Below the pieces are notes generated by a model, which saw only the letters and a list, made by a program, of their open reading frames with translations, did not search any database and was not told where the DNA came from. This document shows, in pieces, positions 5,637-12,150 of a DNA stretch of 30,856 nt. The position numbers were made by a program, and so were the translations under genes. This stretch comes from a virus: the IMG/VR virus record IMGVR_UViG_3300009414_000046, positions 1-30,856 of that record. The stretch is one strand, 5' to 3'. Numbering within the stretch: position 1 is the first letter of the stretch; each line of letters begins with the position of its first letter.

Positions 5637-7418
5637 TTAACTGTAATTGTTTTCCCATGTATATACTTCTAATGGTTTTTCTTTTCCTTTAACTTCAATA
5701 GGTTGCAATGATTTTAATTTAAAATTACTGTACTTAGAAGTTTCTTCACCAATCAGTACATTAACTCCTGCTACTTTTGTCGCACTTTCCAATCTTGCAG
5801 CTACATTACAGGGATCACCGATAAGGGAAAAAGCAAATCTATCCGTAGCACCAAAGTTACCTGCAATACAAATACCTGAATTGACACCTATACCTATCGC
5901 TATTTCAGGGATTCCTTCTTCTTTAAACTTTTTATTTAATTCAATTATATTTGTTTCTATCTGTCTTGCAGCCTGTAAAGCTAAATTATGGTGATCTTCC
6001 TGCGGTAAAATAGTATTCCAGTGAAACATTCCAGCATCACCAATAAATTTATCAGTGACCCCTTCATATTGATTGACCGCATTTACCTGAACATTCAATA
6101 CATTATTCATTATGTAAGTTACCTGCTCTGGTTCAACAGATTCAGATAAACTGGTAAATCCTCTAAGATCAGTAAAAATAATACTGCAATCCCTTCGCGC
6201 TCCATTAACTTTACATAATGCAGGGTTATCCTGTAATTTCTTAACCATTCTAGGATCAAGATATTTGCCAAATTGCTTTTTAATCTGTTGTCTAAGTTTA
6301 TATTGCTGCCTAAATCTTAGATAAAATGCCGTAGCTCCTGCTATAAACTGGCATATTAAAGTCCAAGTAACATCGACCAATAATCCATGTTGTATCATAT
6401 AGAAGCCGAAATACGCGCTTACAGACATTATTGCTGCAAATAGGCTAATACCTAGCGTAATACCAAATAAAAGCAATACAAGCCAAATAAGAGCCACTGA
6501 GAAAAAAAGTATCAGCATCTCTAATGCTAAAGCATAATCAGGTATATAAGGGCTATCTTCTATTAAAATACTTTCAGCCAAAGCTGCCTGTATTTTATGT
6601 GGTTCCAATAAACCTACTGGAGTAGCAAGTTGAGGCATTACTCCTTTGGCAGTGACACCGACAAATACAAACTTACCTTCTACATCCATTTCTTCCAAAG
6701 TTGTCTGTGGTGTATCTACCCAACTGATCCACTTTCTGCCAAACGAATCCACTTTCACGGCAGGTAAACCTCTAACCCTTATTTCTTCTAAACCATTTTG
6801 ATTTGTCTTTATGACATAAGTATCAGCATCTACCAATACTTTTAATACTTCTGTGCCATAAGCAGGAACCCAACCATCAGGAGTACGCATTAATAATGGT
6901 AAACGCCTGACTAGATTATCTATATCAGTTCTTGCTACTGCTATCCCTTCATTGGCAACCTCTGACAACATTGGAATATTGTTAAGCACACCTTGTGATT
7001 CAATACCGCCAGTATCTTCCCCCAATATGACTGTACCAATCGTCTTGGGATATTGGTTATTATTATTTTCAAATAAAGGCAGAACCGAAGGTGCATAACT
7101 CAAGGATTCGGCAAAAGCATCATCGCCACCCAATCTATCTTTATGTGGGAATCCAATAACCCAACCTACTCCTATAGCACCTTTTTGTAGTAATTCTATC
7201 TGTATTTCAGCCAATCTTTGTCTAGGTAAAGGATACCCGCCTTCTTTATCAATATCTTCTTCAGTGATATTGAGAATTGTAAAGTAACCCGAAGGTGGCT
7301 TTTCAGCGACTAAAGCATCAAAAGTCTTTAGTTTTAGTACCTCTAAAGGTTCCCATTGGAAAGATACTGGAATAAAAAATAATACAATTAATGCAAATAA
7401 TTGCACATATCTAATCAT
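5637..7418 (-). CDS. CHASE2-domain class III adenylate cyclase, membrane-bound
   Basis: The 593-aa protein should make cAMP from ATP under control of a periplasmic sensor. An N-terminal membrane segment (residues 5-20) is followed by a CHASE2 region (about 25-295, with FDALVAEKPPSG, PLPRQRLAEI and GKFVFVGVTAKGV). Three membrane segments (about 297-367) and a short linker then lead to the catalytic domain (about 405-590). The active site looks complete: Asp417 (IIFTDLRGFT) and Asp461 (KFIGDAG) for metal, Lys457 and Asp535 for adenine, Asn538 and Arg542 for the transition state (IGDPCNVAARLE). The Lys/Asp pair favours ATP over GTP. Its ATG overlaps the end of the second curlin gene by 8 bases. 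CHASE2 cyclases often neighbour FecR-domain genes in bacteria, as here. A phage-borne copy is unusual. Confidence 0.93.
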   Translation of the reverse strand: MIRYVQLFALIVLFFIPVSFQWEPLEVLKLKTFDALVAEKPPSGYFTILNITEEDIDKEGGYPLPRQRLAEIQIELLQKGAIGVGWVIGFPHKDRLGGDDAFAESLSYAPSVLPLFENNNNQYPKTIGTVILGEDTGGIESQGVLNNIPMLSEVANEGIAVARTDIDNLVRRLPLLMRTPDGWVPAYGTEVLKVLVDADTYVIKTNQNGLEEIRVRGLPAVKVDSFGRKWISWVDTPQTTLEEMDVEGKFVFVGVTAKGVMPQLATPVGLLEPHKIQAALAESILIEDSPYIPDYALALEMLILFFSVALIWLVLLLFGITLGISLFAAIMSVSAYFGFYMIQHGLLVDVTWTLICQFIAGATAFYLRFRQQYKLRQQIKKQFGKYLDPRMVKKLQDNPALCKVNGARRDCSIIFTDLRGFTSLSESVEPEQVTYIMNNVLNVQVNAVNQYEGVTDKFIGDAGMFHWNTILPQEDHHNLALQAARQIETNIIELNKKFKEEGIPEIAIGIGVNSGICIAGNFGATDRFAFSLIGDPCNVAARLESATKVAGVNVLIGEETSKYSNFKLKSLQPIEVKGKEKPLEVYTWENNYS

Positions 7419-8208
7419 ACTGATTGACTGTAATCGTTTTATTGCAAGTACCAGTGCAATCCAATGTTACTGTGTAATTCTGGTTCGTTGAGCCTGATTG
7501 TGTAGCATTAACTGTATAACTACCCTGTTTTACTAAAATATTCCCGACATGAGTGCCATTACCACTTTGCGTTAGATTGACTGTATTGTTATCTGATGGG
7601 TTATTTCTAAATTCTATATCCCCGTCTTTAGCACCACTACCTGATTGTGTAATCGTTGCATCATTATTATTGCAATTACCACAGGATTTTATGTAAGCGT
7701 TATGGTTTCCTGTTCCAGATTGTGTGATTGTCCAGTCAGAATAATCACCGAAAGCGTACATCTTGGCGTAGAAATCATCCCCTGTTTGGCTAATGATATA
7801 GTTATTGTTATCACCGCCCATATATATCTCAGCATAATCATCATTTCCTATCTGGGTAATGGTGGTAACATTATTACTGTAATCCAGATCAAGGTAAGCG
7901 GTGTTATTATCCCCTTCCTGCTGAATCGTATATTCATTATTCGTATGATTAGTAAACTGTGAATAGGCTTTTGCAAGGTTTCCATCGCCAGTCTGGTCTA
8001 TATCAATATCGGCATTGGTGCATAAATGAGTATCAAAAGTGCCATCGGACAATCCGCACCATACCCTCGCGGTATTACCTGCACCTATCTGATCTACCAG
8101 AATCTCAGTACCACTGCCTTTGGTTCTTACTTCAACAGTATTATCTGCCGCCCATAAGGGAAGGCTAATTAGACTGATTAATAGTAATCGAACTATCGCC
8201 ACCACCAT
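7411..8208 (-). CDS. Secreted curlin-repeat protein 2 (CsgA/CsgB-like amyloid subunit)
   Basis: The 265-aa protein has a signal peptide (LLLISLISLPLWA, cut near Ala20-Ala21) and then about ten curlin-type repeats of roughly 20-25 residues. The core is I-x-Q-x-G-x-x-N or a variant: ILVDQIGAGN, IDIDQTGDGN, YTIQQEGDNN, TTITQIGNDD, WTITQSGTGN, ATITQSGSG, VNLTQSGNG. It ends TITVNQYD, recalling the NQY end of E. coli CsgA. It is larger than CsgA (151 aa). Unlike CsgA it has three pairs of cysteines (51/63, 176/179, 251/255) lying between repeats. The start overlaps the FecR gene by 44 bases, and an AAGG lies about 12 bases upstream. Probable role: fibre subunit or nucleator exported through the CsgG homologue. 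Confidence 0.88.
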   Translation of the reverse strand: MVVAIVRLLLISLISLPLWAADNTVEVRTKGSGTEILVDQIGAGNTARVWCGLSDGTFDTHLCTNADIDIDQTGDGNLAKAYSQFTNHTNNEYTIQQEGDNNTAYLDLDYSNNVTTITQIGNDDYAEIYMGGDNNNYIISQTGDDFYAKMYAFGDYSDWTITQSGTGNHNAYIKSCGNCNNNDATITQSGSGAKDGDIEFRNNPSDNNTVNLTQSGNGTHVGNILVKQGSYTVNATQSGSTNQNYTVTLDCTGTCNKTITVNQYD

Positions 8209-9244
8209 TGATTGTTGCCCTTATTTGTTTTCCAGCAGTTAAAATATTAAGGTTATAAGCTCCTTCCTTATCCAGTTCCAAATCAACTGTATTTTCCACT
8301 TGCCTGAAAATGGTTAATATTTCACCTTCCACGAAGGTATAAGTCTGATTATTCTGGTCAAATCCTGCCAATATTCCTTCCAATTGAACTCCATCCAACT
8401 CACTGACCTTTTCTTTATCTTTACCGACATCTTCAATGACATCCAATAAATCAGCAAGAAAATCCACGTTCAATAGGTCTATATCTAAACGATTGACTTC
8501 ATCCAACTCATTCTCATCAAGATCATTCTCATCCAGTTCAGTTTCTTCCAGTAAATCAACATCCAGTATATTGGAAGCTGTAGCACTTTGTTCTTCCACA
8601 GCCCTTTCAATTTCATCTGGCGGATTAACAATTAATAAATTATCAATAAAATCAAGGGTTAAGTTGATTAAAACTACTGGCTTTGTCGGCATGGATTCAC
8701 CTACACTGACCATCGTTGCCTGAAAAGGCTCGTTTAGCACCACAGTACCTGCTAACGAATCTACTGTTATTTCTCCTGACGAAGTTCCATCTGCATCAGG
8801 TAAAAGAATAACCAGACTTCTGCCTATCTCATCTACTGTAGTAGTGAAATCAGTTCCACGAATCGCAATATTGGCTGTTGGAGTCTTAATACTGATATTT
8901 TCTTTATTGATCCTGCCTAATGCGCCTGTAATAAATCTTGCCGTACCACTAGCCATACGAAGTGCCATCTTGCTTTTGGCTGGATTAGGATCATAAATAT
9001 ACTCGTCAATAATAATCTTGGAATGTTCTGTCAACCTAACTGTAGAAGAATCAAGAAACTCAATAGCTATTCGACCATCGCCAGTACGGACATCATCAAA
9101 AGAAAAAATATCTAAAGCTAGCTCTGCCAATAATTTATCCTGCTGGTTAGTGCGTAAAACTTCACTATTTCCTCTTAATTCAGATATTTCTCCTACCTGT
9201 GCAAAAGAAACAACAGGAATAAGCGCTAACAACCACTTGTGCAT
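8165..9244 (-). CDS. Secreted FecR-domain protein with acidic repeat and curlin-like C-terminus
   Basis: The 359-aa product has a signal peptide (MHKWLLALIPVVSFA, cut before Gln16). It then shows a FecR domain at about residues 48-140: DVRTGDGRIAIEFLDSSTVRL, LRMASGTARFITGALG and TPTANIAIRGTDF. Residues about 228-265 are an acidic Leu/Asp/Asn repeat (ELDEN, DLDEN, ELDEV). The C-terminus is beta-rich and ends GGGDSSITINQSN, which resembles a curlin half-repeat. It lacks the cytoplasmic anti-sigma part and inner-membrane segment of classical FecR, so it looks purely periplasmic or exported. It overlaps both neighbouring curlin genes (19 and 44 bases). A sensor, adaptor or minor fibre component is plausible. 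Confidence 0.9.
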   Translation of the reverse strand: MHKWLLALIPVVSFAQVGEISELRGNSEVLRTNQQDKLLAELALDIFSFDDVRTGDGRIAIEFLDSSTVRLTEHSKIIIDEYIYDPNPAKSKMALRMASGTARFITGALGRINKENISIKTPTANIAIRGTDFTTTVDEIGRSLVILLPDADGTSSGEITVDSLAGTVVLNEPFQATMVSVGESMPTKPVVLINLTLDFIDNLLIVNPPDEIERAVEEQSATASNILDVDLLEETELDENDLDENELDEVNRLDIDLLNVDFLADLLDVIEDVGKDKEKVSELDGVQLEGILAGFDQNNQTYTFVEGEILTIFRQVENTVDLELDKEGAYNLNILTAGKQIRATINGGGDSSITINQSN

Positions 9245-9933
9245 TGATCTATATCAATCGTGCCGCTTGTTGTTGTTGATACAATATTCACGATACCACT
9301 GGTGCTTGCGCCACTATTTGTTTGGTCAATGTCAATATTATTGCTATTACCTGTGATAGAAGCAGTAATGGAATGGTCTGCATTACCTGTTTGGGTAGTG
9401 TCTATATCGTTACCATCCCCACTTACTGTCCAGTTATTAATACAACCCACAACCTCACAGGTGGCATTAATGTTGTTTGAAGTTCCTGTTACCGCAAAAT
9501 CCTGATTACCACCTGTGGCAGTGGCTGCTGCTCCTTGTGTCATCACAAGAACATTACTGTCTCCTGTGGCTGCATAATCAAAATCCGTACCTGCTATATC
9601 TCCAGTGGCACCACCAGCGAGGGTAGTGACATTACTATCGCCTGTCGTATTAACTGTAAAACTACTGTTATTGGCTTGAACAGCACTTGCTGCAAGCGTA
9701 TTACTATCGCCTACTTGGTCAATATCAACAGTGACTGTCGATCCAGTAAACGTAGCTCTAGCTTGCGCTGATCCCACAGTATTACTATTGCCAATCTGGT
9801 CGATATTCATTGTTAATCCAGTTCCAGATTGGGTAATATATATCAGGTTATTTGCTCCAAAAGCGACACTTGCAGTACAAGCTAAAACCAAAAGTATAAA
9901 AGATGACATTCCCATAATAATAAAATGTCTCAT
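9226..9933 (-). CDS. Secreted curlin-repeat protein 1 (CsgA/CsgB-like)
   Basis: The 235-aa protein has a signal peptide (SSFILLVLACTASVAFG, probable cut before Ala27). The mature part is built of degenerate curlin-like repeats: IYITQSGTGL, NIDQIGNSNT, DIDQVGDSNT, VNTTGDSNV, AATGDSNVL, VTGTSNN, VSGDGNDI, TTQTGNADH, SITGNSNN, IDIDQTNSG and IDIDQCTSGC. Several repeats lack the usual Gln, so it is more divergent than the 265-aa protein. Two cysteine pairs are present (159/164 and 231/235, the last closing the protein). LVLAC could be read as a weak lipobox, in which case it would be a surface-anchored nucleator. It starts one base after csgG ends and overlaps the FecR gene by 19 bases. Confidence 0.85.
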   Translation of the reverse strand: MRHFIIMGMSSFILLVLACTASVAFGANNLIYITQSGTGLTMNIDQIGNSNTVGSAQARATFTGSTVTVDIDQVGDSNTLAASAVQANNSSFTVNTTGDSNVTTLAGGATGDIAGTDFDYAATGDSNVLVMTQGAAATATGGNQDFAVTGTSNNINATCEVVGCINNWTVSGDGNDIDTTQTGNADHSITASITGNSNNIDIDQTNSGASTSGIVNIVSTTTSGTIDIDQCTSGC

Positions 9934-9934
9934 A

Positions 9935-10717
9935 TCAATCCTCCGTCTTTATATCCCATACATCTCTATCAATTCCTTGTTTAATTAATGCGTAAACTGC
10001 TGTTTCTATGGCAGATTTTACTGCATATCCCGTTGTTTCATTCTCAGTTATCCCTGATTCCAGTTCAACTAATTCGGTCCCGTTTTCCGTAAATCTAAAA
10101 CCATCCATACCAGCACCAACAGAAAATATTGTTTTGCTTGCTGATACATTTAAAATTATCTCTCCAGTTTGGACAAGAACAGCTCTTAAAGCTACTGTAA
10201 CACGATCCCTTCTGTATTGATTAGTCAATCCTATCCCTAAATAACGCGCTCCCGTACCACCAGTCTGGTAATTGGCATCATAAGAAATAATGCCTCCTTC
10301 CATGATTAATCCCGAATATAATAACGGCATTAATTTATTGGCACCTTCTCCATCGTAACTATTCCTAGTAGAAACAATGAGTTGCCTTTCCCTAGTTAAA
10401 TGGTCTAAACCGACACGTTCAGCAACAGTGAACCAGCTTCCTTTTCCTGCATTAATCAATGCTTCGATTAAGTATAAATCAGCGCCTTGAGTAACGGCTG
10501 TGCTGAATAAAGCCATATTATCTGCTGACTTACGTTGTCCAGTCAGATCGGGAAACTTATAAACAGAAACAACCGCTTTCTGTTCTGGAACGGGTAAATC
10601 TATAAGTGCTTGCAAGGAAGGTCTTTCAATGATTGGACCTTCAGTATCTCCTACTACAGTTATTCCAGCACATCCTGAAATTAACAAAAAATACAACCAT
10701 ATGATTAAGGTACGCAT
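9935..10717 (-). CDS. csgG: CsgG homologue, curli secretion pore lipoprotein
   Basis: The 260-aa protein matches E. coli CsgG (277 aa) along most of its length. The lipobox is LISGC with Cys16, the same position as in E. coli. Conserved blocks are SVYKFPDLTGQ, FSTAVTQ, GGTGARYLGIG, ALRAV-TGEI, SKTI, SAIETAV and GIDRDVWD. CsgG forms a nonameric outer-membrane channel that exports unfolded curlin subunits. In the constriction loop the Phe equivalent to F56 is kept (Phe71 of the precursor), while N55 is Leu and no Tyr stands at position 51. The C-terminal tail after WD is shorter than in E. coli. It overlaps csgF by 13 bases and precedes curlin gene 1 by one base. Confidence 0.95.
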   Translation of the reverse strand: MRTLIIWLYFLLISGCAGITVVGDTEGPIIERPSLQALIDLPVPEQKAVVSVYKFPDLTGQRKSADNMALFSTAVTQGADLYLIEALINAGKGSWFTVAERVGLDHLTRERQLIVSTRNSYDGEGANKLMPLLYSGLIMEGGIISYDANYQTGGTGARYLGIGLTNQYRRDRVTVALRAVLVQTGEIILNVSASKTIFSVGAGMDGFRFTENGTELVELESGITENETTGYAVKSAIETAVYALIKQGIDRDVWDIKTED

Positions 10718-11211
10718 TCATCTGAAGAACAGATACCAAAAGACCCTACAGGAATTATAATCTCTGTTGTTACTCCATCTTCATCAATAATAGTTAATAT
10801 AATCTCCGTACCAGTATTAACAAAAGTAATCACATTACCTTCCAAAACAATACTTCCGCCTGTGCCGCCTGTGTCACTATTAAACAGGGATTCAGCAAGA
10901 TCACGGGAAAGCTGGGAATAAATGCGAGATTCCAGATTTCTAAGAAATTTAGCTAAAGTAGTGTTATCGGCATCTCTAGCAGCTTCGTTTAAAGCGGATT
11001 CTATATCTTCGGCAATCTTTTCCCTTCTGGAATTTTCCTGCTCATCTATAGTTAAATAATGGGCTGATGTACCAATACCACTAAAAGAAGGGTTATGAAA
11101 CTTAAATGTAATAATATCTGCTTTGATTGAAGCAGAACAAAAAGATAGCAAGATTAACCACCCTATTATTAACAATCCGTTATCATTTAATCTTTTTATT
11201 CTTTTTTTCAT
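10705..11211 (-). CDS. csgF: CsgF homologue, curli pore accessory factor
   Basis: The 168-aa protein has a long signal peptide (hydrophobic core about residues 12-28, cut near Ala31). The predicted mature N-terminus is IITFKFHNPSFSGIG, very close to the E. coli CsgF segment TMTFQFRNPNFGG that inserts into the CsgG channel and forms a second constriction. Downstream are a helical charged region (EKIAEDIESALNEA), a Gly-rich linker (DTGGTGGSIV), and a beta C-terminus with two Cys in its last eight residues. CsgF links the pore to the nucleator at the cell surface. It overlaps csgG by 13 bases and the upstream membrane-protein gene by 29 bases. Confidence 0.9.
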   Translation of the reverse strand: MKKRIKRLNDNGLLIIGWLILLSFCSASIKADIITFKFHNPSFSGIGTSAHYLTIDEQENSRREKIAEDIESALNEAARDADNTTLAKFLRNLESRIYSQLSRDLAESLFNSDTGGTGGSIVLEGNVITFVNTGTEIILTIIDEDGVTTEIIIPVGSFGICSSDECVP

Positions 11212-11446
11212 GTTTAGCAGACTCTCTTAATTCAATTACAGTATCGAGTTTTTGTTGAAGTCGAATGATGTCATTATCCAGCATTCTAATTCTGTCAATT
11301 AACTCAATTAAGGTAACAGAAGTTTCTGATAATTTCTTTTTTATATTATTAGTAATAAACCCCCAAATAAAATAAATCATATATAGCAGACCAACTGTAG
11401 CTACGATAGGAAATCCGTATTCGCTGATGATTGTAGCTATATCCAT
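11183..11446 (-). CDS. Small membrane protein with coiled coil, holin-like, 87 aa
   Basis: An N-terminal membrane segment (about residues 10-32, GFPIVATVGLLYMIYFIWGF) is followed by a basic patch and a charged heptad-like helix (IRMLDNDIIRLQQKLDTVIE) with a Lys-rich end. The N-terminus resembles the next protein upstream (GFPIVATVG against GFPIAMALIG), so the two look like tandem paralogues. The build recalls small BhlA/UviB-type holin-like proteins. It overlaps csgF by 29 bases and the 93-aa gene by one base (TAATG). Confidence 0.7.
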   Translation of the reverse strand: MDIATIISEYGFPIVATVGLLYMIYFIWGFITNNIKKKLSETSVTLIELIDRIRMLDNDIIRLQQKLDTVIELRESAKHEKKNKKIK

Positions 11447-11727
11447 TAATCCCTTCTAGCATCTTCTTTGCCATTAGCTCTAGCTATCCTTTCAAGGTCA
11501 GGTCGAATACCAATAACACTACATAAGGTAGCATCCATTCGGATCATATCGTGATTCATTGTTTTTACTCGATTATCCAATGAAGAAACAATACCATGTA
11601 TAGCATCTACTTGACCAATAACGCTTTCCAAAATGTACTTGATAGTAAGAAATATGAAGAATCCGCCAATCAAAGCCATAGCAATAGGAAAACCAACATC
11701 AGCTATTAATGAAAATACCTCATTCAT
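11446..11727 (-). CDS. Small membrane protein with coiled coil, paralogue of its neighbour, 93 aa
   Basis: Residues about 12-34 (VGFPIAMALIGGFFIFLTIK) form one membrane segment. A helical cytoplasmic or periplasmic tail follows (IVSSLDNRVKTMNHDMIRMD), ending in basic residues. It has the same plan and a similar start to the 87-aa protein downstream. The gene abuts the nuclease gene stop (TAA then ATG). Function is unknown; a holin or antiholin-like role is inferred from size and topology. Confidence 0.7.
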   Translation of the reverse strand: MNEVFSLIADVGFPIAMALIGGFFIFLTIKYILESVIGQVDAIHGIVSSLDNRVKTMNHDMIRMDATLCSVIGIRPDLERIARANGKEDARRD

Positions 11728-12150
11728 TTATTCAACTGGTGTATACATACCAGCATCAATTAATTTTTGTCTATTAACTAAATGTTCTGCTTCTATGTCA
11801 TCTTTAGATTGACCAAAGTAAGCTACAGCTAAATTATTAGCTATCATGGCTTGATTTATATTAACGCCATCAACAACAACATCTCCTAAAACTCTACCAA
11901 ATTTACCTTTAGAATCTTTTAATTTAGTTTGTATGATAACTTTATTGCCGTTATCTACAGCGACTTGTAAAAATGCACCAGCTAGTTTACCTCTAACTTT
12001 TTCATCTTTATCTCGTGTCCTAGATTCGGGCGTATCAATGCCGTAAAGACGAACCCTAGAACGATAAAGAATATCGAAGCCCAAGTCCAAAATAACATCA
12101 ATAGTATCGCCATCAACGACTCTATCAACTTTACAACTATATTCATACAT
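11728..12150 (-). CDS. Staphylococcal nuclease (SNase)-family thermonuclease
   Basis: The 140-aa protein carries the SNase active site: Asp15 in VVDGDTIDV, Arg34, Asp39, Thr40 and Glu42 in VRLYGIDTPE, and Arg86 in GKFGRVLGDV. These correspond to D21, R35, D40, T41, E43 and R87 of the staphylococcal enzyme. The family hydrolyses DNA and RNA with calcium. No signal peptide is present, so it should act in the host cytoplasm, for example in nucleic acid breakdown, or else leave at lysis. Its ATG overlaps the stop of the 54-aa gene (TAATG). Confidence 0.9.
   Translation of the reverse strand: MYEYSCKVDRVVDGDTIDVILDLGFDILYRSRVRLYGIDTPESRTRDKDEKVRGKLAGAFLQVAVDNGNKVIIQTKLKDSKGKFGRVLGDVVVDGVNINQAMIANNLAVAYFGQSKDDIEAEHLVNRQKLIDAGMYTPVE

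Follow-up and report, generated by a model that had tools for sequence, protein, structure and literature searches.

The window analysed here, the stretch covering positions 1 to 30,856 of IMG/VR virus record IMGVR_UViG_3300009414_000046, comes from a marine phage and carries a block of genes resembling the curli, or type VIII, secretion system (T8SS) of bacteria. Six genes, all on the minus strand and with neighbours that overlap or stand 1 base apart, encode CsgF (10705-11211; 168 amino acids; PF10614, E 2.1e-12), the pore lipoprotein CsgG (9935-10717; 260 amino acids; PF03783, E 6.9e-48; E. coli CsgG, E 4e-43), a curlin-repeat candidate that we call curlin-1 (9226-9933; 235 amino acids), an apparently exported FecR-domain protein (8165-9244; 359 amino acids; PF04773, E 9.7e-13, residues 50-144), curlin-2 (7411-8208; 265 amino acids) and a CHASE2 class III nucleotide cyclase (5637-7418; 593 amino acids; PF05226, E 5.1e-25, and PF00211, Guanylate_cyc, E 1.1e-18). 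An earlier note, made from the letters of the window alone, had read these six consecutive genes as an export operon with two cargo proteins. Open reading frames (ORFs) and Pfam profiles bear out their place and order, with curlin-1 below the family cut-off, and the gene identities support the reading. Two minus-strand genes overlooked in that note also belong to the block, because one or both precede CsgF in the podovirus and myovirus loci that reach that far: sm2 (11183-11446; 87 amino acids; PHROG 18771, E 2.9e-28) and its paralogue sm1 (11446-11727; 93 amino acids; PHROG 18771, E 2e-29), a single-helix coiled-coil membrane protein; sm2 likewise reads as a membrane coiled coil.

The placement of the 260-residue protein in the CsgG family and of the 168-residue protein in the CsgF family, both proposed in the earlier note, held up in the Pfam searches. 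The tetrapeptide ISGC of CsgG (Cys16; 10670-10681, minus strand), which we take to be a lipobox under the lipobox rule, has G15 and C16 invariant in 8/8 homologues, and together with the profile and the E. coli CsgG match it points to an outer-membrane lipoprotein. The FxFxNPxF segment of CsgF noted earlier is present as FKFHNPSFSG (11077-11106, minus strand), aligns to E. coli CsgF (6l7a chain J) and keeps F38, P41, F43 and G45 in all 16 of 16 homologues; this aligned N-terminal segment is presumably the part of E. coli CsgF that enters the CsgG pore. Against PDB sequences CsgF gave only a weak match (E 0.088), in which the N-terminal segment still lines up. In the part of PMC9004378 consulted, it is suggested that pairing between CsgF and CsgG may have been lost in phages; the invariance of the segment speaks against such a loss, without showing pairing. 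OR851715.1, listed as Salmonella phage S.Kent 1-2-1 and 1,499 bases long, also encodes a relative of CsgG with 42% identity, perhaps a host gene fragment.

Both putative cargo proteins had been described as carrying curlin repeats, which proved right for curlin-2 (Curlin_rpt, E 3.3e-15, above the Pfam cut-off) and fell short for curlin-1 (E 0.0028; 18.0 bits against a cut-off of 20.7). Of the first-curlin homologues scanned, 4/7 exceed the cut-off. The motif QxGxxN occurs five times in curlin-2 against a mean of 0.22 and a maximum of 3 in 2000 shuffles, and twice in curlin-1 against a mean of 0.13 and a maximum of 3 in as many. Curlin-2 has nine QxG units spaced 22-32 residues apart, matches CsgA among PDB sequences (E 2e-4) and is predicted to be a beta-solenoid by a structure model with pLDDT 82 and pTM 0.84. 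The second curlin of phage HTVC008M (L021:10626-11960) has a PA14 domain ahead of its repeats (PF07691, E 2.8e-6, above cut-off), and it is the only one of three second curlins scanned to have one. PA14 domains often bind glycans, and this one is possibly a glycan-binding part of the fibre. In one relative (L104:6505-8016) a single 504-residue open frame spans CsgG and curlin-1, through either a frameshift or a real fusion.

The protein encoded between the two curlins departs from known FecR regulators. Its FecR domain begins at residue 50, no 19-residue stretch exceeds a mean hydropathy of 1.6, and neither an inner-membrane helix nor a cytoplasmic anti-sigma part was found by Pfam or by hydropathy. 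Because no stretch passes the hydropathy threshold, the phage protein is not a FecR-type membrane regulator. Its first 16 residues, judged by eye, resemble a short Sec leader. In the structure model an acidic linker, modelled with low confidence, joins a FecR part rich in beta structure to a beta domain at the C-terminus; the FecR part superposes on the PupR signalling domain (6ovk; Z 15.6, root-mean-square deviation (rmsd) 2.3, 136 aligned residues), and the list of structural matches also holds the ‘cell surface anchoring domain’ 5ix9 (Z 7.2, rmsd 2.5, 74 aligned, Foldseek E 8.6e-3), which is below the level to be trusted on its own. Searched against PDB sequences to E 10, the FecR profile found no relative, one chance-level row aside.

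What sets the FecR protein apart is its last strand, ITINQ (8174-8188, minus strand), which is patterned like the strand that ends each of the two curlins. Counting a strict form of this pattern within six residues of the protein end, over distinct ends, we found it in 67/68 phage FecR proteins, 57/62 first curlins and 68/69 second curlins. The controls gave 1/71 for CsgG, 0/67 for CsgF, 0/66 for the cyclase, 0/43 for lysozyme, 1/36 for the staphylococcal nuclease homologue (SNase) and 5/383 for other ORFs of at least 120 amino acids. A looser form was found in 67/68 FecR proteins and in 12/383 other ORFs; in a separate count its share was 3.5% of internal windows but 73/74 among phage FecR ends. 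Bacterial FecR proteins had it in 0/26 cases. That control began with 30 loci, the best match per genome, which gave 27 full-length frames and three cut by the locus end (L174, L175 and L197, with the pattern present at the cut end of L197). The one positive among the 27, L195, is a phage-type module and was set aside, and one of the remaining 26 (L184) looks like a wrong frame. In bacterial loci, five of ten ORFs picked by the curlin profiles end with the strict pattern, so that curlins often have this end strand but do not always do so. Judged from sequence, these counts suggest that the phage FecR protein belongs with the fibre proteins and is not a regulator. A literature search on phage curli and on FecR, curlin and amyloid turned up no published mention of a FecR protein with a curlin-like end.

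Our set of 109 locus rows combines loci found through CsgG, loci found through FecR (the best 80 of at least 556), phage records and contigs of metagenome-assembled genomes (MAGs); some contigs appear twice and two rows lack the module. The whole eight-gene string is present in 46/109 rows, and most other module rows are cut by contig ends. The gene order that the earlier note had proposed seeking in virus contigs was thus found in IMG/VR contigs and phage records alike. The CsgG-found set is free of the selection for FecR, although L002-L004 and L012-L014 within it are near-copies. In this set FecR and the second curlin are each present in 16/16 loci that extend past curlin-1, and the cyclase in 11/15 that extend past curlin-2, being not beside the block in L005, L008, L011 and L020. 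Comparing the window type (L002) with L005 over frames taken from stop to stop, the ratio of nonsynonymous to synonymous substitution (dN/dS) was 0.09 for CsgF, CsgG and curlin-1, 0.16 for FecR and 0.04 for curlin-2; over ten pairs all finite ratios were at most 0.37, with many comparisons saturated at synonymous sites. These genes are under purifying selection. All seven matches in genome contigs open in the gene order of the phages, some of them truncated or incomplete, and we read them as phage contigs within MAGs; the module-bearing contigs titled Synechococcus, Maricaulis, Planctomycetaceae and Flavobacteriaceae (L024, L025, L027 and L029) are probably phage contigs binned in this way. 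At five loci in which the cyclase is absent (L008, L011, L020, L070 and L101), the second curlin is followed by an ORF with a transmembrane segment and coil and by an ORF resembling a lipoprotein, which by eye look like spanins. A lysozyme comes next, preceded by an SNase in L011 and L101 and by a small ORF in L070.

The catalytic domain of the cyclase (5661-6191, minus strand) aligns with adenylate cyclases such as CyaB among PDB sequences (E 3.6e-25), and six canonical residues, which we take to be the metal-, purine- and transition-state residues, are kept in 76/81 near-full-length homologues, some of them from one contig. The sequence points to a class III nucleotide cyclase with its catalytic residues kept and ATP or GTP as candidate substrate. 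Identity in the CHASE2 and cyclase parts is 70% and 39% between the window and L010, and 66% and 84% between the window and L105, so phages seem to have swapped cyclase domains without the CHASE2 sensor, giving the halves separate histories. Cyclic-nucleotide receptors are scarce in the likely hosts. In 61 genomes related to a MAG titled Candidatus Pelagibacter, taken to be SAR11 from this relationship and from their size, cNMP_binding domains were found in 2/61 and a class III cyclase in 3/61, two of these on contigs with the phage module; a cNMP_binding domain was found in 0/12 phage records, of which ten may be fragments. FecR and CHASE2 genes are neighbours in 3/30 bacterial loci with flanks of up to 1.5 kb. 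A FecR-domain gene also stands beside a CHASE2 gene, there a histidine kinase, in a Burkholderia biofilm operon (PMC5192318, in part), and a Sinorhizobium FecR-domain gene is described as a target of the cyclic AMP (cAMP) regulator Clr (PMC5498481, likewise in part). The phage block thus resembles a curli operon with such a FecR-CHASE2 pair attached. The earlier note had gone further in giving the operon its own signalling arm. The kept cyclase residues agree with this; the FecR protein without a membrane helix and with a curlin-type strand, the FecR-keeping modules that do without the cyclase and the near-absence of cNMP-binding domains from the likely hosts do not, leaving the claim weakly supported.

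The small upstream genes occupy the position of a published ‘histidine kinase’, and from that position we infer that sm1 and sm2 are the genes so named in PMC9599517 (Wittmers et al. 2022), which in the part consulted also calls FecR an iron-dependent regulator. All 27 sm1/sm2 homologues tested match PHROG 18771, a family of unknown function, and 12/27 match a holin family weakly. No HisKA or HATPase domain appeared among the 25 of 27 Pfam families listed for the 27 homologues, and the nearest kinase-linked match was dCache_3 at E 0.11 in 1/27. Neither published name is supported by the tests made here. We also rejected a spanin identity for sm1/sm2: matches to PHROG 89 were weak (3/27, best E 0.011), and the charges, read by eye, place the tail in the cytoplasm.

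Beyond the block, the earlier note had named phage tail genes on one side and a holin and lysozyme on the other. The lysozyme is there (PF00959, E 5e-15); a holin is only plausible, the ORF in question belonging to PHROG 1544, of unknown function. The opposite flank, on the CsgF side, holds the SNase, a 2-oxoglutarate (2OG) oxygenase and a tail-spike-like protein. The SNase gene (PF00565, E 8e-13; 11728-12150) is the block's immediate upstream neighbour, and relatives also have one nearby. An assembly chimera was ruled out by three further IMG/VR contigs (L002-L004), which hold the same block and flanks from 2OG oxygenase to lysozyme and whose CsgG is 100% identical, and a bacterial contig was ruled out by the terminase, portal, head, tail-spike-like and lysozyme genes of the window. 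The terminase is 52-57% identical to those of the HTVC023P-type phages HTVC023P, HTVC027P and 023Pt_psg01; that of DSL-LC04, a phage labelled Gammaproteobacteria, is equally close (56%). By sequence relationship, a Pelagibacter host is likely. A megablast search of 50,697 phage records with positions 9900-30856 gave no match, and the window had no Rfam match at gathering scores. Predicted promoters numbered 17, an uninformative count against a shuffle mean of 37, and predicted terminators 6 against 4.6.

The kind of module described here is already published, and the window is a further member. PMC9599517 describes, in the part consulted, pelagiphages (HTVC023P-type phages and myoviruses) with a T8SS module in this gene order: small gene or genes, CsgF, CsgG, curlin, FecR, curlin and cyclase. 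The window differs in belonging to a different phage. The earlier note's impression that the full set with cargo and cyclase had not been reported was mistaken, as this paper and the records of HTVC008M (KC465899) and Melnitz (MZ577097) contain it. These two have the same order and CsgG proteins 47% and 45% identical to that of the window; they differ in being myoviruses, in carrying the module beside replication and baseplate genes, and in a longer second curlin, with PA14 in HTVC008M. Contrary to the statement in PMC9004378, again as far as consulted, that csgA and csgB are absent from Melnitz, its record annotates two curlin-repeat proteins (L022:9851-12645). Chromosomal T8SS loci of Alphaproteobacteria (L125-L129) likewise have adjoining CsgF, CsgG and curlin-repeat genes, but differ in that our FecR, cyclase, sm1 and sm2 profiles had no match in 5/5 stretches of 19 kb; having been built from phage proteins, these profiles may overlook FecR or cyclase genes that are only remotely related. 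The five loci derive from CsgF matches in 7/385 genomes, one left out as below the cut-off (G184) and one set aside for two matches on phage-order contigs (G001), and a bacterial operon uniting CsgFG, FecR and cyclase was not found among them. The block also resembles bacterial FecR-CHASE2 sensor pairs, in which a FecR-domain gene adjoins a CHASE2 gene; these differ in that the CHASE2 protein of PMC5192318 is a histidine kinase, with no curlin mentioned in the part consulted, and in that bacterial FecR proteins lack the C-terminal pattern. In fold, the FecR part is like the cell-surface signalling domain of PupR/FecR proteins; the phage protein differs from these in lacking a transmembrane helix and a cytoplasmic anti-sigma part.

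Our leading explanation, which we hold to be as likely as not, is that the block functions as an amyloid exporter and alters the surface of the infected cell, with the FecR protein as part of the fibre or its anchor and the cyclase optional. Such a phage-carried T8SS would act in the infected cell, with CsgG forming an outer-membrane pore that CsgF caps. Both curlins would pass the inner membrane through the host Sec machinery, leave by the pore and stack as beta-solenoid amyloid on the cell surface. The FecR protein would be exported too and, because its end strand has the pattern of both curlins' last strand, its C-terminus could dock on the curlin stack, where the protein might nucleate, plug or anchor the fibre at the pore. 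Such a role would be like that of CsgB, though in an unrelated fold. The CHASE2 cyclase, sm1 and sm2 would be attached parts, the cyclase dispensable. The likely gain would be an altered surface that excludes rival phages or serves attachment.

Several observations weigh against this reading. Genes for CsgE and CsgC were not recognised, curlin-1 scores below the Pfam cut-off, and Foldseek and VIA returned general beta-helices for curlin-2, with no curlin among the 50 matches listed. The apparent export of the FecR protein comes from a by-eye reading, and its structure model is of moderate confidence (pLDDT 66, pTM 0.49). The looser end pattern also occurs in 10/71 CsgG proteins, and the FecR C-terminus has in common with the curlins only the short strand pattern, not a full repeat; as the Pfam curlin repeat had no match at E 10 in six FecR C-terminal pieces, the strand may be convergence and not common descent. 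Cells infected with Melnitz, whose record holds the whole module, did not clump in cytograms or by transmission electron microscopy, according to the portion of PMC9004378 consulted.

That last observation bears most directly on ‘sibling capture’, put forward in PMC7029224 and PMC9599517 (each in part), in which the fibres would bind a cell to its daughters or neighbours and thereby bring newly released phages into contact with further hosts. The PA14 domain on the HTVC008M curlin would suit such capture, but the Melnitz cultures speak against it, and against the cell aggregation that the earlier note had also entertained; we hold it to be highly improbable. The Melnitz authors instead proposed a pinholin-like role (PMC9004378, in part), and more broadly CsgG, with or without CsgF, could be a leak or uptake channel or a lysis timer, the curlins being relics. 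The block adjoins the lysozyme here and in relatives, sm1 and sm2 match a holin family weakly and CsgE is missing from what we recognised, all of which would fit; relics, however, would hardly be expected to show the universal second curlin of the CsgG-found loci, the low dN/dS of both curlins against L005 or the pore segment of CsgF kept in every homologue, and we regard this account as very unlikely.

Wittmers et al. (2022; PMC9599517, in part) proposed that the curli genes are controlled by FecR, the ‘histidine kinase’ and the adenylate cyclase, or that these three mediate a cAMP-dependent response to iron. CHASE2-FecR neighbours in bacteria and in the Burkholderia operon (PMC5192318, in part), the PupR-like fold of the FecR domain and the canonical residues of the cyclases all favour a regulatory role. 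It is at odds with a FecR protein that has neither membrane helix nor anti-sigma part, with upstream genes of 87-93 amino acids and no kinase domain among the Pfam families listed, with the loss of the cyclase from modules that keep FecR, and with the rarity of cNMP_binding domains in SAR11-like genomes and phage records, and we think it unlikely. Somewhat doubtful, too, is a hybrid in which FecR is both sensor and anchor: its curlin-like tail would sit in the fibre or the CsgG pore while its periplasmic FecR domain tethers the fibre, much as retention domains tether large adhesins, and signals to the CHASE2 cyclase, where one is present, whether export is under way. If true, a phage would have combined a curli operon with a FecR-CHASE2 sensor pair into a fibre-export checkpoint.

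Two features of the block are ones that a specialist would not expect, the end strand of the FecR protein and the missing cyclic-nucleotide receptor. That SAR11-like genomes have hardly any cNMP-binding domains casts doubt on the published cAMP reading, and through the C-terminal strand that it shares with the curlins the FecR protein acquires a specific partner open to testing. Viral curli proteins are reported from all 65 GOV2.0 stations (PMC9599517, in part), so a bacterial virus that supplies a secretion system and its amyloid cargo to hosts reported to have neither poses a puzzle of global reach.

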